Assembly (NCBI GenBank): GCA_903936705.1
Contig: CAIZWN010000071.1
Span: 1 to 51,049, forward strand
DNA length: 51,049 nt
Direction of reading: 5' to 3'
Origin: an uncultured Myxococcales bacterium
Lineage (GTDB): Bacteria > Myxococcota_A > UBA9042 > DTJE01
The notes beneath the pieces were generated by a model. The model was not told the origin of the DNA, did not search any database, and was given only the letters and a program-made list of their open reading frames with translations. The translations under genes were made by a program, and so were the position numbers. Shown here one piece after another: positions 14 through 11,435 of this stretch; position 1 is the stretch's first letter, and the number at the start of each line of letters is the position of its first letter.

Positions 14-216
14 ATGAGGCAAATCCGAGAGATCCTGCGATTGTGGCTGGGACTGAAGTTGACGCAGCGGGAGGTAGGTCTGGCGACGAACGTGTCGCCT
101 GCCACCGTATGGGACGTGGTGACGCGGATGCAGGCGGCGGGCTTTACGTGCGCCATTGCTGTGCAGGGAAAGGTCGTGGTCACGGTCCGCCCCGGCTATT
201 TCGAGCCCTTGTCCCT
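14..216 (+). pseudogene. 5' fragment of an istA-DUF3987 chimera, cut by IS66
   Basis: The reading frame starts at ATG 14 behind a strong GAGGAGG ribosome site at 1-7. Its first 43 or so codons look like the helix-turn-helix N-terminus of an IS21-family IstA transposase (MRQIREILRLWL, then LTQREVGLATNVSPATVWDV). Around base 140 the sequence changes to CAIAVQGKVVVTVRPGYFEP, which resembles the start of a DUF3987 domain and not IstA. The frame is then broken at 217 by an IS66 element and runs into a TAA inside the inverted repeat. Removing the element and one target copy in silico joins this frame directly to the frame at 2842, giving one open frame of about 636 codons. I infer that a deletion fused istA to a DUF3987 gene and that IS66 inserted later. 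Neither half is likely to work. Confidence 0.75.
209..216. repeat. Left copy of the 8-bp IS66 target duplication
   Basis: TTGTCCCT lies immediately before the left inverted repeat and is repeated exactly after the right one at 2842-2849. Eight base pairs is the usual target duplication length for the IS66 family. Confidence 0.95.
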
Positions 217-238
217 GTAACCGCTCGGTGAACCGCAC
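217..238 (+). repeat. IS66 left terminal inverted repeat
   Basis: Begins GTAACCGCTCGGTG. It matches the reverse complement of 2820-2841 at 21 of 22 positions; the single difference is at the fourteenth base. Confidence 0.95.
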
Positions 239-288
239 TCTTCCAAGCCTATGCACCCCGATGCAAACTGCCTGCGGAGGTGCAATCG

Positions 289-654
289 ATGAGCAACCCA
301 GCCCCAGGTACTATTTCCCGCAACCGACCTTTGACCAAAGGCGAAGCAAAGCGTGAGTTGACGGCCTGGTCGTCGAGCGGTCTGTCGCTGGCCGCCTACG
401 CCCGCGAGCGTGGCATCCCGGAAAAGCGCCTATGGAGCTGGCGCGCACGGCTGAAGGCGAAGGGCTGGGATCCTGTTGTGACGAGCAACGATAGGGACTC
501 TGGCCTCGTACCTGCACGGATCATAGACAGCCCGGCCTTTGGCGTACGCACGGGTTTCGAGGTATCGCTCGGAACCGGCATCGTGATCCGGGTGCCGTCG
601 GATTTCGACAAGGGCTCGTTGCGCCGGTTGCTGGAGGTGGTGTCGGAATGCTGA
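289..654 (+). CDS. tnpA: IS66 accessory protein TnpA
   Basis: A 121-residue protein of the IS66 Orf1/TnpA family, a small DNA-binding accessory protein required with TnpB for IS66 transposition. The N-terminal half has the family helix-turn-helix character ([23 protein letters not shown]), a wording typical of IS66 TnpA. The C-terminal half, ending in [18 protein letters not shown], is the usual family ending. I chose ATG 289 because GGAGG lies 8 bases upstream at 276-280; a GTG at 280 overlaps that site and is unlikely. The last codons overlap tnpB in an ATGCTGA arrangement, implying coupled translation. Confidence 0.9.
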
Positions 655-1019
655 CGCTGCCGCCGTCGGTCCGGGTCTATGTATCGACCCGGCCAACAAA
701 CATGCACAAGTCGTTCGATGGGCTGTCGGCTTTGGTGAGCGGGGTGATCGGGCAGGATCCGATGGCCGGTCATCTGTTTGTCTTCTTCGGCCGCCGTGCC
801 GACCAGGTCAAGGTCTTGTACTGGGATCGGACTGGTTACTGCGTCTGGTCGAAGCGGCTGGAGCGGGGGCGATTCCGGATGCCGTACGCAACACCAGGAC
901 CTGACGGTTGTGTCGAGATCGAGTCAGCAGAATTGTCGTTGATTCTGGAGGGGCTCGACCTGGCTGGTGCGCGACGGCGAGCGAGGTGGGAGCCGGCTGC
1001 GGGTGCGTGTTTTACCTGA
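648..1019 (+). CDS. tnpB: IS66 accessory protein TnpB (Orf2 family)
   Basis: A 123-residue IS66 Orf2 protein. It carries the family signature almost word for word: [16 protein letters not shown] near residues 15-30, [19 protein letters not shown] near 42-60 and the [14 protein letters not shown] stretch. TnpB works with TnpA in IS66 transposition, but its biochemical role is not well established. The start overlaps the tnpA stop, so the two are probably translated together. The next gene, tnpC, is separated by 66 bases of unusually AT-rich DNA that appears to hold its own promoter. Confidence 0.93.
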
Positions 1020-1050
1020 AAATATATGTCATATTTTAGGCAAATATTTG
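1019..1050. promoter_or_regulatory. Two palindromes upstream of the tnpC promoter
   Basis: An inverted repeat with 7-base arms (AAAATAT, 5-base gap, ATATTTT) covers 1019-1037, and a perfect 10-base palindrome CAAATATTTG covers 1041-1050, abutting the predicted -35 box. The stretch is strikingly AT-rich inside a GC-rich element. The palindromes could be operators; no regulator is known from the sequence. Confidence 0.5.
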
Positions 1051-1079
1051 TTGACAATATAGGGTGATTCTGCAATAAT
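1051..1079 (+). promoter_or_regulatory. Strong sigma70-type promoter for tnpC
   Basis: TTGACA at 1051-1056, a 17-base spacer, then AATAAT at 1074-1079: a perfect -35 box and a 5/6 -10 box. Transcription would start about 7 bases later, at or next to the tnpC ATG at 1086. There is no Shine-Dalgarno sequence before that ATG, so the message may be leaderless. Confidence 0.7.
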
Positions 1080-1085
1080 TCCCGC

Positions 1086-2750
1086 ATGGTAAACGAAACA
1101 ACAGCCGTTGCCAGGCCCGCCGATCTCCAGGAAGTAAAACACCAGATCGATGGCATGCTGACCGAGGGTCGTGGGGACGAGGCCGTTGCCGTCCTTTTCA
1201 CGATCATCGAGAAGATGTTGCAGGACAACGCTGGCCAGGCGGTCCGTATTGCCTCGCTGCTGAAGCAACTCTACGGACGTCGGTCCGAGAAGGTGGACCC
1301 GAACCAGCTTCGCCTTTTCATGGACATGCTGACCGAGGACCCTACCGCCCAGGAACTCGTTGCCGAACTGCCTGCGCCGGTCGATGGGCCTTTGCCGGCG
1401 CCGAAGCCAAAGGCTGCGCCGCATGGTCGCAAGCCGTTGCCTGCAAACCTGCCGCGTGTCGAGGTCGTCCTGGAACCTACCGAGGCCGAGAAGCATTGCG
1501 ACACGTGCGACTGCGACAAGGTGGTGATCGGGCACGAGACCAGCGAGTTGCTTGAGTACGAGCCCGCCCACTTCCTCGTGAAGGTCATCCAGCGTACGAA
1601 GATGGCTTGCCCGGCCTGCGAGACGGGCGTCGTTGTTGCACCCACGGCGGACAAGGTGATCGAGAAGGGCCGTCCTGGTCCCGGGCTGCTGTCGCATCTC
1701 CTGGTCGGCAAGTACCAGGACAGCCTGCCGTTGACGCGGCAGGTGGACATCTTCAAGCGCCATGGCGTCGAACTTTCCACCTCGACGCTTTCCGACTGGG
1801 TCGGTGCCAGCGCCGACGTATTCGAGCCGGTGTATCTGGCTCTTGTCGATCAGGTAATGGACTCGCACATCGTCGGGACCGACGACACCGGCCTGAAGGT
1901 GCTCGACAAGCAACACGAGAACGGTGTCCGGAAGGGCAGCATGTGGGCGTATGTCGGTGACAATCGGGCGGTTGTCTTCGACTTTACGCCCGACCGGAAG
2001 TCCGAGGGCCCGGCGCGCTTCCTTTTGAAACGCACGGGGATCATCCAGTGCGACGGGTACACCGGATACAAGCGCATTGCGCGAGAACGCTTTGATGTGC
2101 GCTGGGCCGGATGCCTTGCGCATGCGCGGCGCAAATTCGTGGAGGCGTTGGATGCTGGTGATCGCCGTGCGTCGATCCCGGTCACGATGTTTCGAGCCTT
2201 GTACAAGGTCGAATCGGATGCGACTGACGAGGGCCTCGGCCACGCGCAGCGTCTTGAGAGACGCCGTGCCATCAGCAAGCCCCAGATGGAGAAGCTGCAC
2301 GATTGGCTGAAGGAAATGCACCCCACCGTGCCGCCCAAGACGCCTCTTGGCAAGGCTATAGGCTACGCCATCAACCAGTGGGCTTCCTTCCAGGTCTTCC
2401 TGACCGATGGCCTGGTGCCGATCGACAATAACCAGGTCGAGCGCCAGATCCGCCGCATTGCCGTGGGCCGGAAGAATTACCTTTTCTGCGGGTCCGACGA
2501 AGGTGCGCGCCGTGCGGCGATCCTGTACTCGGTCCTCGGGACTTGCAGGCTGGTCGATGCTGACCCCTATGCGTACATGCGAGACATCCTGGAGCGCCTG
2601 ACCAGCGGCTGGTGCAAGTCCAGGGTCCGCGACCTGCTGCCAGGTGCCTGGGTCGAGGAACAGGCCAGGAACAAGGGCCTGGATACCGCTGCAATTGTGC
2701 TGGACCCGGACCGCGGTCAGCCACCGGCCCCCGTACCGACACCAGCCTGA
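1086..2750 (+). CDS. tnpC: IS66-family transposase TnpC
   Basis: A 554-residue DDE transposase that cuts and joins the element ends. The N-terminal third holds a helical, leucine-rich stretch and a Cys-rich zinc-binding region (HCDTCDCD near residue 138, then ACPACETG near 180). The catalytic core follows: GTDDTGLKVLD gives the first Asp, IIQCDGYTGYKR the second, and PIDNNQVERQIRRIAVGRKN the Glu. The C-terminus has the IS66 CRLVDADPYAYMRDIL ending. Length and layout are normal for the family. Start ATG 1086 lacks a ribosome site but lies just at the predicted transcription start of an internal promoter. Confidence 0.97.
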   Translation: MVNETTAVARPADLQEVKHQIDGMLTEGRGDEAVAVLFTIIEKMLQDNAGQAVRIASLLKQLYGRRSEKVDPNQLRLFMDMLTEDPTAQELVAELPAPVDGPLPAPKPKAAPHGRKPLPANLPRVEVVLEPTEAEKHCDTCDCDKVVIGHETSELLEYEPAHFLVKVIQRTKMACPACETGVVVAPTADKVIEKGRPGPGLLSHLLVGKYQDSLPLTRQVDIFKRHGVELSTSTLSDWVGASADVFEPVYLALVDQVMDSHIVGTDDTGLKVLDKQHENGVRKGSMWAYVGDNRAVVFDFTPDRKSEGPARFLLKRTGIIQCDGYTGYKRIARERFDVRWAGCLAHARRKFVEALDAGDRRASIPVTMFRALYKVESDATDEGLGHAQRLERRRAISKPQMEKLHDWLKEMHPTVPPKTPLGKAIGYAINQWASFQVFLTDGLVPIDNNQVERQIRRIAVGRKNYLFCGSDEGARRAAILYSVLGTCRLVDADPYAYMRDILERLTSGWCKSRVRDLLPGAWVEEQARNKGLDTAAIVLDPDRGQPPAPVPTPA

Positions 2751-2841: not shown

Positions 2842-2849
2842 TTGTCCCT
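2842..2849. repeat. Right copy of the 8-bp IS66 target duplication
   Basis: TTGTCCCT, identical to 209-216. Confidence 0.95.
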
Positions 2850-4101
2850 CTACACCGTCACGGTTCTCGAATCGGGAAACAGGAAGTCTGCGGTCTTCAA
2901 AGCCGCTATGGACCCCCTCTGCCAGGCCGAGCGGGCGCTGGAGCAAGCGCTGCGCCCCCAAATCGCATTGGCCGAGTGCCAGAAGAAGATCCTGGAGAAC
3001 GACAAGAAGGTCGCGGACGCAGCGGCAGCGGCGGCCTTGCCGCAGGACCAGAATGCGGCGGTCCTCAAGGCAGCCGACCTGGGCCTGAAACTGGCTGAAC
3101 TCCGCGTCCCCGCCATCCCACGGCTTCTGGCCGACGACGCCACCCCCGAGGCGCTAGTCCGGCTCATGAGTCAGCAGGGGGGCCGCATCGGCGTGGCAAG
3201 TCCGGAGGGTGGCGTGTTCCAGATCATGGCCGGACGCTACTCGAATGGCACCCCGAACCTCGACGTGTATCTGAAGGGCCACGCGGGCGACCTCCTGCGT
3301 GTGGACCGCATCGGGCGTGAATCCGAGTCCATCGACAGGCCCTGTCTGACCGTGGCGCTCACCGTCCAGAAGGACATCATCGAGACTCTGACGGACACCC
3401 CCGGCTTTCGCGGGCGCGGTCTGTTGGGGCGGTTCTTGTACGCGATTCCGACCGACCTGCTGGGGCGCCGTGTTGCTGACCCTCCCCCCGTGCCTCCGAG
3501 CGTGACCGGCGACTACCAGAACGTCCTGAGGGCGCTGGCCGACATGGCTGTACCGGAGAACCCCCACGAACTTCATCTGGCACCCGACGCGGACTTGCTT
3601 CGGAAGAATCTCGACCGGTGGGTCGAGAGCCAGATCGGTCCAGGCGGGGCTCTATCGGCAATCACCGATTGGGCAGGGAAACTCGTCGGGGCGGTCGTCC
3701 GCCTCGCCGGACTGCTTCACCTCGCGGACTTGGCGGGGCAGGCGGCACCTTGGTCCACGCCTGTCTCGGCCGACGCAATGAAACGGGCGGTGGAAATCGG
3801 ACAGTATCTTGTGCCGCACGCGCAGGTGGCGTTCGGCATGATGGGGGCCGACCCCCACATCAAGGCCGCGCAGCGCATCCTGGACTGGGTCATGCGGCAC
3901 GGCCTTCGGACCTTCTCGAAGCGAGATGCGTTCAACGGCAATCGGGGGTTCTTTGAGCGCGCCGCAGCCCTCGACGTTCCTCTGGACATCCTGGCTGAGC
4001 GCGGTTTCATCCGTCTGCGGCCTATCCCCCCGAGCGGCGGCCAGGGCCGTCCGCCGTCGCCGGTCTGGGAGGTCAACCCGCTGTGGCTCGCGACAGGCGG
4101 G

Positions 4102-4128
4102 ACGCAGAATACGCAGAATACGCAGAAT
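4102..4128 (+). repeat. Three 9-bp tandem repeats (ACGCAGAAT)
   Basis: Three perfect copies inside the DUF3987 coding region, encoding a TQN-TQN-TQN run. The core CGCAGAA is the exact complement of the core of the second repeat patch 37 bases further on. Confidence 0.9.
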
Positions 4129-4164
4129 TCCAACGGCGAGGCCAGACCGGTGGGCCTCCCCCCT

Positions 4165-4191
4165 GTTTCTGCGGTTTCTGCGGTTTCTGCG
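4165..4191 (+). repeat. Three 9-bp tandem repeats (GTTTCTGCG)
   Basis: Three perfect copies encoding a VSA-VSA-VSA run. The TTCTGCG core is the reverse complement of the CGCAGAA core at 4102-4128, with the same 9-base spacing, so the two patches could pair as a segmented hairpin. Confidence 0.9.
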
Positions 4192-4575
4192 GAGGCGCCC
4201 GCGCGTGACGAGGTTCTGGAGCCCGGTCCGACCGGGGAGACCGAGGCTGTCTCGACCGGGACCGTCGCCGTCGGCGTGCAGTCCGAATCCGGGACGGCTC
4301 CGGGACCTGCCGGCGCCTGCGGCGCCGGCACCTACGCGCCTGCTGCCGCCGGAGGTTCCACGGACGAGCCGATGTACCGCGACCTGGAAGCCGCCCTCGT
4401 AGGCCAGACCATCGGGGCGACCCCGTTGTACGACCAGAAGACGGCGGACCGCTACATCCGGGACCACATTCAGCGGTTGGGAGGCTGGCACCCGGAAGCG
4501 CTCGCCAACGACTACGAGCAGAGCGTCTTCACCGACATGGCTATCGGAATCGGCTGACCGGCAGGCGCATCGTCC

Positions 4576-7500
4576 CTACCCCACGACCTCCAGGAACTCC
4601 GCCACGACCCGCAGGTCACCGCTGGCCGCCGTCAACGGGATGGGCTCGAACCCGGGGTTGTCCGGGCGCAGCGAAACCACCTCCACGGCGCCAGCGGAGG
4701 ACCACTTCGCCACGGTCCAGCGCTTCAGGGTGTAGCGCCCGCCAGTCTCGGGATCGGACGCCTCGTGCAGTTGCACGACGACCCGCTTGCCGTCGAGGGC
4801 TGACGCAGCGGGAGCCGCCCCGACCGGGTACGACCGGAACAGGCCCCAGGCGCCGTCCGGGATGTGCGGCTCCATCGACTTGCCCGCGACCTTCGCCACG
4901 AACATGGCCGCGTGCAGGCGTCGGTCCGTCTTCGGCTTCGCCCAGCCCACGCAGGCGGGTTCTTGCCCGTCCGAGAACGCACCGCAGGCGGCCTCCATGT
5001 CGAATACGGGCACGGCCTCCGTGTACCGGTCCTGCGACGGCACATCCTCCAGCACGGCCAGCGCGGGCTTGGCGAACAGCGCGCCCTCGTCGGGCAGCAG
5101 CGGCACGGTCTCGTGGTGCGCGAGCAGGTGCCGGACCTCCCGCACGCTTCGCTGCTCCCACCAGGAAATGTCCGCCCGGTTGATGGCCGTGTTCTCGATG
5201 AGCATGAGGAAGTGCCAGGGCTCGCGGTCGTGCTGGGTCAGCAGTTCGCAGTAGGCTCGCCCGACCCGCGCCTTCTCCTTGTCCCGGCCGTCCAGGCGCC
5301 CCTTCACCTCGATGATGACGTTGTGGAAGACCTGGCCGATCTTCGCCCTCACGATGAAGTCCGGGAAGTAGTTCGCGGGCGTCCCCTGCCATGCGTAGGG
5401 GATCGAGTACCCCACGCCTGACCGATGGTTGTAGACCCAGCCTGACACGTCCTTCGCGCCGTCCAGCATCAGGGCCAGGCGCCGCTCCTCCGGGCTGTCC
5501 ATCGCAGCCAGGCCGAACACGGTCCGCTTCGGGGCCTCGACCAGGTTCTTCTTGAGGGCCTGGTAGGAGTCGATGTCCTTGGTGTGGCGTTCGGACATGA
5601 GCGCCCGGGCGGACTCCCGGGTCGTGGCGATGGCGTCCTGTACCACGGGCAGGAGTGTCGCCCGGACGGCCTGCACTACCTGCGGACGTGTGGCGTTCCC
5701 GAGGGCAAGCGCCGCCTGCCCGGCGGCGATGATGTGGTCGAACGAGATGATGATCCCGGCCGGGAGGTTGAACGTCTTCTGCTCCAGGAAATCCCGCACG
5801 ACACCCTTGAGGGCGGTCCGGTGCGCGAAACTCACCCGAAGGTCGCGCAGGATGGGCCGGACGTAGGCGTGTTCCAGAACCTTCTCGAAGTCCAGGTAGG
5901 ACGGGGTGCCGTACAACGTGAACTCCAGTCCCTCCTCCTCGCCCTCGGCCAGCGAGTCCCGCAGCCAGGTCTTGATGTCGCTGGCCGGGATCTGCTCCAT
6001 CCACGGCAGGCGGGGACCCAGGCCGGGCAGCCGGTTAAAGTCCACCCGCCTGCGCCAGTCCAGCGTCTCCTCGGACATCCCCTCGAAGCGGACCAGACGA
6101 ACGTCCAGCGCATCCAGCGCCGCCTCGTCCTCGACGCGCTTGATGCCGACATAGTCGCGGTTGTGGGGAAAATCGCCGGGGCCGCGCTCCTCGATGATGT
6201 CCCGGATCTGGTCGAGGATCGCCTTGAACGAGGGGTGTTCGATGACGTACAACTCCTCGTCCTTGATCTCGGCCGCACCCTCGTCGTCCAGGATCGGCGG
6301 GTGCATCTTCCGCAGGCCGCGCCCCAGCGTCTGTTCGGTCAACGTCCGCGAGTCGCAGGGCCGGAGGGGCACCACGACCTTGACGTTGCGGACATCCCAG
6401 CCCTCCTTCAGCATCATGACGCTGACCACGACGTTGTACGGGTTCGGGACGTAGACCCGTTGGCCGCGCTCGTCCACGTGCAGGAACTCGTCCCGGTCGA
6501 TGGCGTTCACGGAGTCCCGGACTTTCTCCCATTCGTTCTCGTTCCTGGTTTCCTTCTCGCCGATGTGGATCTCGACGACCGTGGATTGCACGTCCCCGTT
6601 GCTCCGATCCAGGAACAGGATCTCCTTCGTTTCGGGGTCCGCGTATCCGGTCGGCGCGCGGCCCGTCAGGTCTTCGGCGGTGGCCTCCCCGTATCGCAGG
6701 AAGTTCGCCACCTCGCGGGCCTCGTCCTTGTCGTTGCACAGGATGAACAGGATGGGCTTGCGCGGGTCGCCCTCGTCGCGCAGTTGTTCCTGAACCTTCT
6801 GCCACCGCTGGATGCCCGTCACCAGCAGGTTGCGGTACTTCTCCCAGGCGTTCGGCTGTCCATCACGGACAAGTGGTTCCCACTCGCCCGTCCTTCTGTC
6901 CTTGACCTCAATGCGCTCCAGGATCGGCTTCTTGACGATGCCGTCCTTGATGGCCTCGGCCAGGTCGTACACGAGCGCGGTATGCCGGAACAGGTCCCGG
7001 GGCCGGAACTCGGTCGCCTGCTTCCCGCCCTTGCCGGGTTTCTTGACTGCGCCCGTCTCCTCGAACAGCGTGGCCGACAGGTCCACCTGCAACGAGACAC
7101 GGCCGCCGCCGACCTCGGACCCGTGCAGGCGTCGGATCGAGCGAATCCAGGCCATCTCGGCCTGCTCCTCCTCCCCGGTGTTCGTCGCTTTCTCGCGGGC
7201 CTTCCGCTCGAACTTCGAGTGCCCCGTCTCGTCCCAGACGTGGTGCGCCTCGTCGTTGATGACCAGGAGCCCGCGCGACTCGCTGAACCGCTCCAGCAAG
7301 GGCGTCTGGGCCGCTTCCAACTTCGCCGGGTCGCCGTCCACGAACAGGAGGTTCATCTGGCGCGCCAGCGTCTCGTCCGGAAGGTCGAGGCTCTCGCGCG
7401 TCCGCAACATCTGGTGGAAATTCGTCACGACCAGCGCGCCCTGGTTCGGCTCCAGTGTCAGGGGGCATGTCACCGGGTCGTACACGGTGAGGTTCCAGTC

Positions 7501-8136
7501 GCGGTCGAATTCGGGCGGGACGACGGGATCTGACGAGAACACGGACGGGCTTCCGTGAAGCGGGCGGAAGTCCATCAGTAGTCGGTCCCGCACGAAGAGG
7601 TTGGGTGCCACCACGAGCGCATGGCGGCCGAACCCGAGACCTGACCCAGTCCCGGGCGCATGCAGGGCGTTCAGGTACGACCACGCGATGACCAGGCTCA
7701 TGATCTTGGTCTTGCCCGAGCCCGTCGCCATCTGGGCCCCAATCTTGGCCCACGGGTCGTGCTGGTCGTCGATGGCCTCGGCACCGGCCAGACGCCAGAG
7801 GTCCTCGCTCCGCCGAATGCCACGGACCTCGTACAGGTAGATGAACGTCTCGACCGCGCGGCGCTGGTGGGGCCAGTACTTGAACAAGGTGGTCCGGTCC
7901 GGCCCGACCGCGTGAGGCTCGTGCCGGAACCAATGCCGCAGCAGCGTTGCCGTCGTGTCCGTGAGCGGACGCTCTTCGGCCCGGCCCGGCGCGTACCGCG
8001 CCGGCTCGTCAGGGTAGGGCTCGGCGGCTGGTCCGAGTGGGAACCCGCGCCACTCGTCCACGAGGCGGCGGACCTCGGCCAGCACACGCGCCTGCCCCTT
8101 CAGTTCATCCCCGGAGAACAACGATGGCTCGCGCAT
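4576..8136 (-). CDS. res: Type III-like restriction subunit Res fused to an S24 peptidase domain
   Basis: An 1186-residue protein. Residues 1 to about 650 form an SF2 helicase/translocase: Walker A ATGSGKTK at 137-144, DEAH at 295-298, LKEGWDVRN near 577 and QTLGRGLRK at 602-610. A PD-(D/E)XK-type nuclease follows: PDF at 925-927 and EVK at 943-945. From about 1015 to the end lies an extra S24 (LexA/UmuD-like) peptidase domain with VAGKSMEPHIPDG (Ser1087) and YTLKRW (Lys1138). The candidate cleavage bond Cys1051-Gly1052 lies 35 residues before the serine, the same spacing as in UmuD. Together with Mod it should cut unmethylated foreign DNA. I chose ATG 8136 (AGGGGG just upstream); longer upstream codons overlap mod. 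The gene lies 8 bases after the mod stop, so the pair is an operon. Known type III Res proteins are near 970 residues, and the S24 fusion accounts for most of the excess. Confidence 0.9.
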   Translation of the reverse strand: MREPSLFSGDELKGQARVLAEVRRLVDEWRGFPLGPAAEPYPDEPARYAPGRAEERPLTDTTATLLRHWFRHEPHAVGPDRTTLFKYWPHQRRAVETFIYLYEVRGIRRSEDLWRLAGAEAIDDQHDPWAKIGAQMATGSGKTKIMSLVIAWSYLNALHAPGTGSGLGFGRHALVVAPNLFVRDRLLMDFRPLHGSPSVFSSDPVVPPEFDRDWNLTVYDPVTCPLTLEPNQGALVVTNFHQMLRTRESLDLPDETLARQMNLLFVDGDPAKLEAAQTPLLERFSESRGLLVINDEAHHVWDETGHSKFERKAREKATNTGEEEQAEMAWIRSIRRLHGSEVGGGRVSLQVDLSATLFEETGAVKKPGKGGKQATEFRPRDLFRHTALVYDLAEAIKDGIVKKPILERIEVKDRRTGEWEPLVRDGQPNAWEKYRNLLVTGIQRWQKVQEQLRDEGDPRKPILFILCNDKDEAREVANFLRYGEATAEDLTGRAPTGYADPETKEILFLDRSNGDVQSTVVEIHIGEKETRNENEWEKVRDSVNAIDRDEFLHVDERGQRVYVPNPYNVVVSVMMLKEGWDVRNVKVVVPLRPCDSRTLTEQTLGRGLRKMHPPILDDEGAAEIKDEELYVIEHPSFKAILDQIRDIIEERGPGDFPHNRDYVGIKRVEDEAALDALDVRLVRFEGMSEETLDWRRRVDFNRLPGLGPRLPWMEQIPASDIKTWLRDSLAEGEEEGLEFTLYGTPSYLDFEKVLEHAYVRPILRDLRVSFAHRTALKGVVRDFLEQKTFNLPAGIIISFDHIIAAGQAALALGNATRPQVVQAVRATLLPVVQDAIATTRESARALMSERHTKDIDSYQALKKNLVEAPKRTVFGLAAMDSPEERRLALMLDGAKDVSGWVYNHRSGVGYSIPYAWQGTPANYFPDFIVRAKIGQVFHNVIIEVKGRLDGRDKEKARVGRAYCELLTQHDREPWHFLMLIENTAINRADISWWEQRSVREVRHLLAHHETVPLLPDEGALFAKPALAVLEDVPSQDRYTEAVPVFDMEAACGAFSDGQEPACVGWAKPKTDRRLHAAMFVAKVAGKSMEPHIPDGAWGLFRSYPVGAAPAASALDGKRVVVQLHEASDPETGGRYTLKRWTVAKWSSAGAVEVVSLRPDNPGFEPIPLTAASGDLRVVAEFLEVVG

Positions 8137-8144
8137 GGCGCCCC

Positions 8145-10481
8145 CTATTTGACTGTGACCTCGACCGTCGCAATGCCGTCGTTGCCGAACACGTCCGTGA
8201 CCCGGGCGGCGATGCGGTGGTAGCCCGGCGCTTCGTAGCGGAACTCGGCCTTGAAGGAGAGTTCCGTATCCCCGGCCTTGCCGCCCCGAACCCGGAAGGA
8301 CTGCCAGTCCGTCTCGAAGATGGGCTTGCCGTCGAGACCCGTTCGCCGACCGTAGTCCCAGTCCACGGCCCAGAAGTCCACGAACCGCTGCCACGAGTTC
8401 GCCTTGCGGAGCCAGTCCACCAGTTCCTTCTGGCGGGCCTCCCAGCGGTCACGCTCTGCGATGGCCCGGACCTTGGCCTTCTCGCTCATGCCCTCGGTGA
8501 CGGGCTTCAGTATCGGCTTCTGGCTGGCGATGAACGAGTCCACGTCCACCTCGCACCGCTTCAGCGTGAGGGTCAACGCGCGTCCGTCCGTGGCTGCGTC
8601 CAGCACCAGCGACAAGGGGGCGTAGAACGCTGGGATTGCCATCGACTCGACGGCCTGCCCGTCCGCCCGCTGGTAGTCGAGGCGTCGCCGCACCTCGTCG
8701 ATGGCGCTGGCGGGGATGACCCGGATCGTGATGTGGACCCCGGTCTGCTCCACGACCTCGGCCTTCTCGCTGCCCGAGAGTGTGTCGAAGTCCGCCGACA
8801 GGATGGTCACGGCCTTCATGTCGGTGGCCGCTGCGGCCCTGGCGATTGCCCAGACCTGGTGCTTGGACACGGCGGCATCCAGGGGGCCGACATGGACCCA
8901 TGCCTGGTTTCGCTTCCCGTGCAGCAGCGGCGAGGCGTCCATTGGCTCGCCGCCGAACACCCGGATCATCTCGTCGCGGTAGCGCGTTCGTTGGGTCTGA
9001 AAGTCCTGCCACGCTTCCGCTCGCTGGTACACGCCCATGTTCTCGACCGTAAACGGCCGGACGGTAAACGAGCCGGGGCTGCGCTGTGTCTTCTCCTTGC
9101 GCTCCATGTTCTTGCACTTCGGGCACTCGATGTAGTCGTACTCGCGCTTCTCAGGCGGTCGTGCTTGGCCGTGGAGCAAGATCAAACGCTTGCGTGCGAG
9201 GTGGACGGCGTACTTACCGTTATCGATGCAAATCCAGCGTCGTCCGAGACGTTCGGCTGCCTCGCCCGTGGTGCCGCTACCTGCGAAGCAGTCGAGGACA
9301 AGACCTGCGGGCGGACACGACGCCGAGATGATGCGGTCGAGCAAAGCGACTGGTTTTTGAGTCGGGTAGCCAATTCGTTCATGCGCGACTTGGTTTACGG
9401 GATTAATGTCCGACCAGATATCTGTTGCTCGGTTCCCCTGCGTATCCTCGTAGTACCGCTTCACATAGGGAATGCCGCCCGAGGAGAAGATGATCATCCC
9501 GTGCGCCATTCCCTCGTCGATTCGCTCCTGGGACCAAATCCAGTGCTTTCCTGGCGGCGGTTCTAGCAACTTCTCCCCGAACCTTCGGGCCGGACCTTGT
9601 CCCGCTTGCGTGAAGTCAGCCATGTTGTATCGCTTGCCAGTCTCGTCAACGTGGCGGTAATGCGAGTCAAACAGTTCCTCCCGCTTCTCCACGAACACGG
9701 GGAAGAAGGTCGGATTGGGACCAGCCGAGTAGGCCAGTATCGTGTCGTGGCAGTTGGGGAACCTCTGCGACTGGGACTTCGACGCGCGCAACTTCTGCCA
9801 TGCGATCTCATTCTGAAAGTTCTCGTACCCGAACAACTCGTCCATCAAGACCTTGACGTAGTGGACAGTGTGCCAGTCCAGGTGAACGTAGATGCTCCCG
9901 GTCGGCGCCAGCAGGTCCTTCAGCAGTTCCAGTCTCCGCCGGAGCATGGAAAGGAAACTGTCGAGCCCCTGCCGCCAGGTGTCCTTGTAGGCCAGGATCT
10001 CGACCAGGGACGGTTCCTTCTTGACCTGCACGCCCTCGTCGTCGTCGATCTCGATGTCGATGGCGTTGTCGGCCCGGAAGTCACTGTTCACCATGAACGG
10101 CGGGTCGATGTAGATGAGGTCCACCTTGTTCCGGTAGCGGTACTCGCGGGTCTTCGGGTCCTTTTCCTCCAGCAGAGTCTGAAGCGCCACCAGGTTGTCG
10201 TTCGTCCAGATGAGCCGGTTCGGAGGCAGTTCGTCCCCCCCCCGGGCGGCAGCCTTGGCGACATCGGCCAGTTCCAGCCCGCCATCGGCGCTGCGGTCCA
10301 CCACGCGCCCCGGGCGCACAATCTCGACCACCTGCGTCGGAACTGCCGCAGCCAGTTCTCGCCGCTCCATTCCCACCCAGGCAAGGCGGGGCTTGCGCGG
10401 GTCGAGCGTGATGGTGGCCTCCAGGGCCTTCTGGCCCCCGTTCCCATTCGTCGGGCTGGTCTTGCCCTCGTCAGTCGGCAT
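8145..10481 (-). CDS. mod: Type III-like DNA adenine methyltransferase Mod
   Basis: A 778-residue site-specific DNA methyltransferase. The catalytic DPPF motif is at 126-129 and comes before the S-adenosylmethionine motif DCFAGSGTT at 397-405. That is the beta-class order used by type III Mod subunits, which methylate adenine N6. TQKP at 374-377 is another family mark. The 120-residue middle region between the motifs is the likely target-recognition part. After residue 440 there is a CPKC pair and a long tail ending in a beta-rich segment (YHRIAARVTDVFGNDG) that looks PKD-like. The start at 10481 has AGGGAG 6 bases upstream. It is read together with res. Confidence 0.92.
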   Translation of the reverse strand: MPTDEGKTSPTNGNGGQKALEATITLDPRKPRLAWVGMERRELAAAVPTQVVEIVRPGRVVDRSADGGLELADVAKAAARGGDELPPNRLIWTNDNLVALQTLLEEKDPKTREYRYRNKVDLIYIDPPFMVNSDFRADNAIDIEIDDDEGVQVKKEPSLVEILAYKDTWRQGLDSFLSMLRRRLELLKDLLAPTGSIYVHLDWHTVHYVKVLMDELFGYENFQNEIAWQKLRASKSQSQRFPNCHDTILAYSAGPNPTFFPVFVEKREELFDSHYRHVDETGKRYNMADFTQAGQGPARRFGEKLLEPPPGKHWIWSQERIDEGMAHGMIIFSSGGIPYVKRYYEDTQGNRATDIWSDINPVNQVAHERIGYPTQKPVALLDRIISASCPPAGLVLDCFAGSGTTGEAAERLGRRWICIDNGKYAVHLARKRLILLHGQARPPEKREYDYIECPKCKNMERKEKTQRSPGSFTVRPFTVENMGVYQRAEAWQDFQTQRTRYRDEMIRVFGGEPMDASPLLHGKRNQAWVHVGPLDAAVSKHQVWAIARAAAATDMKAVTILSADFDTLSGSEKAEVVEQTGVHITIRVIPASAIDEVRRRLDYQRADGQAVESMAIPAFYAPLSLVLDAATDGRALTLTLKRCEVDVDSFIASQKPILKPVTEGMSEKAKVRAIAERDRWEARQKELVDWLRKANSWQRFVDFWAVDWDYGRRTGLDGKPIFETDWQSFRVRGGKAGDTELSFKAEFRYEAPGYHRIAARVTDVFGNDGIATVEVTVK

Positions 10482-10614
10482 CTTCGACTCCCTTGTTCAA
10501 TCTCGCGGGCTCCTCGAACAGGACGGTGCGGGCCTTCCAACTGGGGGCTGGGGCAAGTGCGCACCGAGGCCGGACGACAGGTCTCATTGCAACCGTCTGC
10601 AAAACGTGGGGCTG

Positions 10615-10643
10615 ATCTGAGCCGGTTAAGGCTTGAGAGTCAA
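10615..10643 (-). promoter_or_regulatory. Possible promoter of mod-res
   Basis: On the minus strand TTGACT (10643-10638), a 17-base spacer and TCAGAT (10620-10615). The -35 box fits 5/6 and the -10 box only 3/6. It would give a leader of about 125 bases before mod. The rest of the 267-base gap between mod and the divergent gene at 10749 shows nothing else I can name. Confidence 0.3.
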
Positions 10644-10748
10644 CACGTCCCGATTCTTCGGGGGTGTTGTCCTCCACGGTCCTGAGTTCCGCTGACGGCC
10701 GAGTAGTCCGGACAGGGGCCTTTCCCCCTCGAAAACACGGAGGATGCC

Positions 10749-11435
10749 ATGCCCGAGCAGCAGTCGATCCCCTTCGCCACCGATGGCGAGTACCTGACCG
10801 AGGAGGCCACCTACCTGGCGACCTTGGCCCGCAGGATCACGAACCAGCAGCGCCTTCGAGACCTCCTGGTGGACGACCTGCACGCCCAGGACCGCGTGAT
10901 CGGCACGCACGAACCGACCGCAGTCGAGGCGTGCCGCTGCAACATCGAGGCCCTCATCGAGCAGGAGCGGGACCTGCGCCACTCCCTCGACCAGCGGCTC
11001 ACGGCCCACCGGGCGGATCCCCAGCGCTTCCGGCTCGGCCTGGATGTCGTCTGCGAGGAGCATGCCCTGCCGCCCGAGGCCCGGACGCTCCTGGCCGTGG
11101 CGACCATCTGCGCCTGCTCGAAGGAAGTCGGCGAGCAGATCGTGGACGGCCCGGGCTGGTCGTTCTACGGCGGCCCGACCGTCGAGAACCTGTACCGGAT
11201 CCTGGGCGCCACGTCCCTCGACTCAAGGTTGCGCCTGCGCTCGGTCTTCCCCCCGCTGATCCGGAACGGGCTCATCGCGGTCGATGTCGGACGGTCCGGC
11301 TACCCCGAGGACCGCCTCGGGAGCCGGGTGTACATCACGTCCGCCGCCTTCGTGCGGATCACCGGGCTCGCGCCCGAGGACGAGGGCTGGCTGGACGGCG
11401 CACAGTCCAGTGGCCGCCGCGCCCGGCAGGGCTGA
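10749..11435 (+). CDS. Island protein of unknown function, winged-helix-like C-terminus
   Basis: A 228-residue cytoplasmic protein with GGAGG just before ATG 10749. I do not recognise it firmly. Residues 1-95 are highly charged and helical (LARRITNQQRLRDLLVDDLH, then IEALIEQERDLRHSLDQRL) and could form a coiled coil. Residues 100-215 alternate helices and strands (PPEARTLLAVATICACS, FPPLIRNGLIAVDV, GSRVYITSAAFVRITG) in a way that recalls the N-terminal winged-helix part of some bacterial AAA+ ATPases. No ATPase domain follows, so it may be a stand-alone or truncated relative. It is divergent from mod-res and 5 bases before the next small gene. Confidence 0.6.
   Translation: MPEQQSIPFATDGEYLTEEATYLATLARRITNQQRLRDLLVDDLHAQDRVIGTHEPTAVEACRCNIEALIEQERDLRHSLDQRLTAHRADPQRFRLGLDVVCEEHALPPEARTLLAVATICACSKEVGEQIVDGPGWSFYGGPTVENLYRILGATSLDSRLRLRSVFPPLIRNGLIAVDVGRSGYPEDRLGSRVYITSAAFVRITGLAPEDEGWLDGAQSSGRRARQG

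Follow-up and report, generated by a model that had tools for sequence, protein, structure and literature searches.

Does a restriction enzyme that ends in a LexA-like peptidase domain cut itself when DNA is damaged, and what would such a cut do to it? The question is raised by a gene in a stretch of 51,049 nucleotides (hereafter the window) from an uncultured Myxococcales bacterium. A preliminary description of this DNA had reported a type III-like restriction subunit that runs on into an S24 peptidase fold, and proposed that the enzyme could cut itself and so tie restriction to the SOS state. The observation as a whole is confirmed here. The gene coordinates were correct, to which we add the strand (minus) that had been left unstated, and every residue number was recovered when re-read from the translation, including PD (925-926) and EVK (943-945) in the nuclease, and AGKSMEP (with Ser1087) and YTLKRW (with Lys1138) in the S24 part (Table 1).

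The restriction subunit and its S24 domain

The methyltransferase gene lies 8 bases upstream of the restriction gene on the same strand, and all close related loci that extend far enough have this order. Judged from sequence, the pair forms a restriction-modification operon of type III-like build, with a helicase followed by a nuclease. It has an SF2 helicase (Walker A, DEAH), a PD-(D/E)XK nuclease and a cognate Mod methyltransferase. The nuclease signature PD...E-x-K is present in 13 of 13 relatives aligned over this region. A nuclease model built from these relatives (pLDDT 84, pTM 0.59) had no confident match in Foldseek; in a second structural comparison, its best matches were TnsA proteins (PD-(D/E)XK; Z 8.5), followed mostly by other nucleases.

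The build resembles that of EcoP15I-like type III systems and of the BPTD_3080 restriction endonucleases, in which an SF2 helicase and a C-terminal PD-(D/E)XK nuclease are encoded behind an N6_N4_Mtase gene. The NCBIfam BPTD_3080 profile scores 271 bits over residues 19-985 against a cut-off of 800, and the S24 tail falls outside it. On this comparison, the subunit appears to be a distant relative only of that family (NF046055).

Table 1. Features of the restriction operon, with positions in the window.
Feature	Residues	Position	Strand	Basis
Restriction subunit with C-terminal S24 cassette	1186 aa	4576..8136	minus	open frame 8136-4579, stop codon 4576-4578
DNA methyltransferase (N6_N4_Mtase; PADLOC type III MTase)	778 residues	8145..10481	minus	Pfam, PADLOC
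Pfam ResIII	89-304			profile match
Walker A, ATGSGKT(K)	137-144	7705..7728	minus	translation; kept in relatives
DEAH box	295-298	7243..7254	minus	translation; kept in relatives
Nuclease motif PD...EVK	925-945	5302..5364	minus	translation, relatives, TnsA-like fold (Z 8.5)
LexA/UmuD-type S24 cassette	1015-1186	4579..5094	minus	profiles A1/A2, structure model, PDB matches
Pfam Peptidase_S24	1073-1179			profile match
Candidate scissile bond	Cys1051-Gly1052	4981..4986	minus	Cys-Gly or Ala-Gly in 9/9 intact family members
Predicted catalytic Ser	1087	4876..4878	minus	invariant in A1; kept in survey except degenerate copies
Predicted catalytic Lys	1138	4723..4725	minus	invariant in A1; kept in survey except degenerate copies

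Profile searches and a structural model agree that the subunit ends in what is, on their evidence, a genuine S24 domain. The Pfam S24 profile scores 21.6 bits on the full protein (E 1.9e-4), slightly below its gathering score of 23.3, and 27.1 bits on the domain alone (E 3.7e-6), above it; all eight aligned relatives match the same profile. A sequence search of the PDB with a profile of the relatives found LexA weakly (E 0.001). The AlphaFold model of residues 1013-1186 (pLDDT 84.3, pTM 0.82) was more informative. LexA, UmuD' and lambda CI account for all of its best 25 PDB matches (Z 9.4-12.2), and the next are signal peptidases, which have a Ser-Lys dyad in common with it (Z 8.0 or less). 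The alignment starts at model residue 27 opposite LexA residue 72, so that the aligned range takes in the cleavage region of LexA.

The predicted active site is likewise that of MEROPS family S24. Ser1087 lies in a G-x-S-M motif with Lys1138 on the following strand, and the candidate bond is about 35 residues N-terminal of the serine, in line with the Ala/Cys-Gly bond 34-35 residues before Ser in LexA, UmuD and lambda CI. UmuD reads FPLFSDLVQCG up to its bond, and the cassette lead-in, P-x-x-x-L-x-x-A-[AC]-G, resembles this. The spacing from Ser to Lys is 51, as had been noted at the outset, against 37 in LexA and UmuD; most of the excess is in two loops at residues ~1106-1117 and 1123-1134. 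The other difference is one of context. LexA, UmuD and lambda CI are repressors or polymerase subunits, whereas the partner here is a restriction helicase-nuclease.

Conservation and distribution of the cassette

Myxococcota, Planctomycetota and related assemblies yielded relatives that cover the whole length of the restriction subunit. The nine intact members (the window, L002, L003, L004, L005, L007, L011, L012 and L152) all keep Ser, Lys and the bond, which has Cys in the window and L002 and Ala in the rest. Bond, Ser and Lys are likewise present throughout the A1 alignment of eight family members. L002 comes from a separate assembly, is 88% identical to the window protein and has an equally intact open frame. 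Comparing the two gives dN/dS values of 0.09 (enzyme), 0.26 (linker) and 0.17 (cassette). The S24 fusion is therefore not an assembly error, and purifying selection acts on the cassette.

The cassette can also be lost. L006 lacks Ser, Lys and bond despite intact helicase and nuclease motifs, so the cassette is not needed for the integrity of the enzyme. The cassette is absent from five close relatives that share the core (L008, L009, L010, L013, L014; L015 is a fragment), and the upstream methyltransferase is present in relatives with or without one. A tree of the family clusters the cassette carriers with two changes (one to three in bootstraps), which does not settle the number of gains. At L006:8554-12654, the decayed cassette is extended by ~115 residues of other sequence, making this locus a natural control.

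A wider survey showed that the finding is larger than one gene, a point that the preliminary description had missed. With profile A2, the cassette was found in 38 of the 284 genomes from the window's own phylum, probably Myxococcota (E 1e-6), and in 14 of 246 Planctomycetota, 4 of 299 Pseudomonadota and 1 of 151 Chloroflexota genomes (E 1e-12), for a total of 57 genomes in four phyla, with phyla assigned by record title. It is a portable cassette that has been repeatedly fused to unrelated defence enzymes, most of them helicases or translocases. As assigned by Pfam and PADLOC, the partners include type I HsdR proteins with HSDR_N, SWI2/SNF2 and T1RH C-terminal domains (L115, L136, L144, L183), more divergent HsdR proteins (L130, L133, L135, L179) and EcoEI-type HsdR proteins (L187, L191). 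Others are ResIII helicases (L114, L118, L137, L190), a PLD-helicase of the type IV kind (L180), a type IIG/DrmM-like methyltransferase (L186), DEAD-MZB helicases of 2000 residues (L138, which is DruE-like, L150 and L184) and Schlafen group 3 helicases (L149, L175-L178). A HATPase protein (L148) and short HTH repressors (L116, L140, L141) also carry it. L117, which resembles a truncated HsdR with a partial cassette, and L193, which starts at a contig end, were excluded from consideration of mechanism.

Some of these loci are of interest in themselves. A single chain at L180:994-4707 (+) joins a HIT domain, a PLD nuclease, a helicase and the cassette. The Hsp90/gyrase-like HATPase at L148:2417-5161 (+) has no PADLOC match and is possibly an undescribed defence ATPase. 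At L145:1-2652 (-), the cassette lies in the middle of a frame of 884 residues, with flanks that have no Pfam match and five extra residues before the bond Gly. Among plasmid records, only one, from Halomonas, has a cassette match; there, the cassette lies directly 3' of a similar-looking helicase in a different frame. A phage origin was considered and set aside, since there was no match in phage records (two queries) or in viral contigs (two short patterns only).

Bond and dyad behave as one unit across the survey. Both are kept in 58 of the 64 cassettes that cover the bond. Four of the six exceptions have lost both, and one each has lost the bond only (L123, Gly-Gly) or the dyad only (L128); for the most part, the losses affect short proteins that have no defence partner. 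The association is significant by Fisher's test (p 3.9e-5; 9.8e-5 when the set is thinned to the 51 cassettes below 70% identity), although these values are optimistic because the 64 cassettes are related and their independence is overstated. The most direct reading of this joint retention and loss is that selection keeps cleavage itself, rather than just a fold or a docking surface. L147 has two adjacent S24 open frames; in one of them and in its relative L128, Ala replaces the catalytic Ser (GDAM), and both cassettes are apparently inactive.

This pattern bears on the idea that the cassette cleaves incidentally or not at all, and serves to dimerise the enzyme or to dock it to RecA or DNA, bringing it to damaged or invading DNA. 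S24 domains do dimerise and bind RecA filaments, and RecA-bound LexA and CI structures are among the PDB matches of the cassette. A docking module would have no need of bond and dyad, yet the two are kept and lost together, and we regard this explanation as quite improbable.

Proposed consequences of self-cleavage

Restriction enzymes endanger the chromosome of their own cell when repair makes unmethylated DNA, and the solution described in E. coli is a separate protease, ClpXP. HsdR is removed by ClpXP during restriction alleviation in E. coli (PMC11109961, PMC4231737), and ClpXP is named as the protease of EcoKI alleviation (PMC12707154). ClpXP also acts on S24 proteins: self-cleaved LexA and IrvR expose C-terminal degrons for it beside the cut (PMC5742171).

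The position of the cassette suggests what a cut would do. It stands at the chain end in most proteins, and near the chain start in L187, L188 and L191. In L187 and L191, it is inserted inside the HsdR nuclease domain, directly before the catalytic ADYVL...VIEAKK strands; two relatives without a cassette, a cyanobacterial plasmid protein and an Aromatoleum plasmid HsdR, are continuous across the insertion point. In these EcoEI-type enzymes, a cut at Ala-Gly would separate the catalytic strands from the first section of the nuclease. In the large fusions with an intact site, the two residues before the bond (P2-P1) are Ala-Ala in 46 of 51 cases. These may reflect substrate fit or descent instead of a degron. 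Once cut, the window protein is predicted to end in ...Ala-Ala-Cys, a doubtful ClpX signal whose degron activity in the host is uncertain.

On balance, we lean towards the cassette being a portable switch of LexA/UmuD type that cuts itself upon DNA damage and turns the defence enzyme off. Following DNA damage or phage attack, RecA filaments would form on single-stranded DNA and prompt self-cleavage at the Cys/Ala-Gly bond of the cassette, in the manner of LexA, UmuD and lambda CI. Such cleavage would turn the enzyme off, either directly, by splitting the nuclease domain of EcoEI-type HsdR, or through a new end. In C-terminal fusions, including that of the window, the tail would be removed and a new terminus exposed, mostly ...Ala-Ala, which resembles the ClpXP-substrate tail of cleaved LexA and could lead to degradation. 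The enzyme would in effect carry its own means of restriction alleviation, by which a chromosome under repair, with its new unmethylated sites, is spared its own restriction. We infer self-cleavage, RecA dependence and the off direction, the last being favoured by the insertion within HsdR, the Ala-Ala ends, the ClpXP degrons of LexA and IrvR, and the part of ClpXP in EcoKI alleviation. Off is not the sole possible outcome, given that the core of the enzyme stays intact when the cassette is C-terminal. A further point against this reading is that EcoKI alleviation does not depend on the SOS response (PMC11109961).

The reverse is that the cassette holds the enzyme inactive until damage-triggered self-cleavage frees an active nuclease, as an abortive or late defence in which DNA is attacked only when replication has run into trouble. 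UmuD is activated by cleavage, and a cassette inside the HsdR nuclease could block it until cut. In addition, the antiphage helicase-nuclease Hachiman frees its nuclease upon detecting DNA damage (PMC12278908). Against this, the five cassette-less members have the same core and methyltransferase, which shows that an inhibitory tail is unnecessary for safe carriage, and the methyltransferase already protects the host. A cut within a nuclease domain more simply destroys it, and the Ala-Ala ends look like degrons. Activation by cleavage therefore seems unlikely, if less so than the docking role considered above.

For the off switch, a RecA signal should exist in this host, as its genome encodes two RecA proteins and a normal LexA with a VAAG site. 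The promoter of lexA itself carries CGGAACAAACGTTCAG. LexA-type control of transcription was rejected for the operon: the region immediately before the operon start (10481) lacks GAACNNNNGTTC even with one mismatch allowed, and matches to this motif across the window are near chance. The SOS link, if any, would thus lie at the protein level. No sigma-70-like promoter or terminator was found in 10400-10800.

Self-cleavage might instead have a trigger other than RecA, such as a DNA-bound or translocating state of the enzyme or another stress. The prevalence of helicases and translocases among the partners is in line with this, and the LexA-like IrvR self-cleaves outside the RecA paradigm (PMC7101444). 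The full LexA/RecA pair in the genome argues against it, as does the presence of the cassette on HTH repressors, which are the usual clients of RecA. We consider a trigger of this kind the least probable of the explanations weighed.

Our analysis therefore supports the earlier proposal of a self-cutting restriction enzyme tied to SOS, with self-cleavage and RecA as its presumed steps, and extends it. Of the outcomes named there as refuting it, neither a missing S24 fold nor poor conservation of Ser and Lys was observed. The presence of the cassette on, and even inside, many unrelated antiviral enzymes suggests that these are coupled straight to the bacterial alarm for DNA damage. It is likely that the mobile cassette represents a general layer of immunity, coupling many DNA-acting defence enzymes post-translationally to damage by destroying (or releasing) the enzyme. 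If so, it would be a direct molecular link from the SOS signal to immunity, spanning restriction of types I, II, III and IV as well as helicase-based defence. The cassette is widespread and coherent, and its insertion into the HsdR nuclease yields a sharp functional prediction.

Related systems and neighbouring genes

The separate components (S24 proteins, restriction enzymes, alleviation) are familiar, and automatic annotations of S24 tails on helicases are surely to be expected in databases. In the open literature searched, including a 2025 review of restriction biology and further papers on restriction and defence, S24 domains were not described for either restriction or defence enzymes; this absence is weak evidence. 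Among the nearest known systems is EcoKI alleviation, in which the R subunit is likewise removed by proteolysis and the host chromosome protected. It differs in that no S24 cassette is described, ClpXP acts on DNA-bound complexes and the SOS response is not needed (PMC12707154, PMC11109961). SauUSI-type enzymes also combine a helicase, a nuclease and an extra C-terminal domain, in their case DUF3427, which has been proposed to bind modified DNA (PMC3874153). A DUF3427 reading of the C-terminal domain was dropped, as the window protein has no Pfam DUF3427 match.

Other genes adjoin the operon. An IS66-type insertion element with three open frames lies near its end (window 280-2750, +; transposase 1086-2750). 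Between the two, a DUF3987 protein (2842-4557, +) is convergent with the restriction gene, with ~20 bases between its end and the stop of that gene, and may have had its start truncated by the insertion element. The C-terminal stretch of the methyltransferase resembles a PKD/Ig-type domain (RYEAPGYHRIAARVTDVFGNDGIATVEVTVK).
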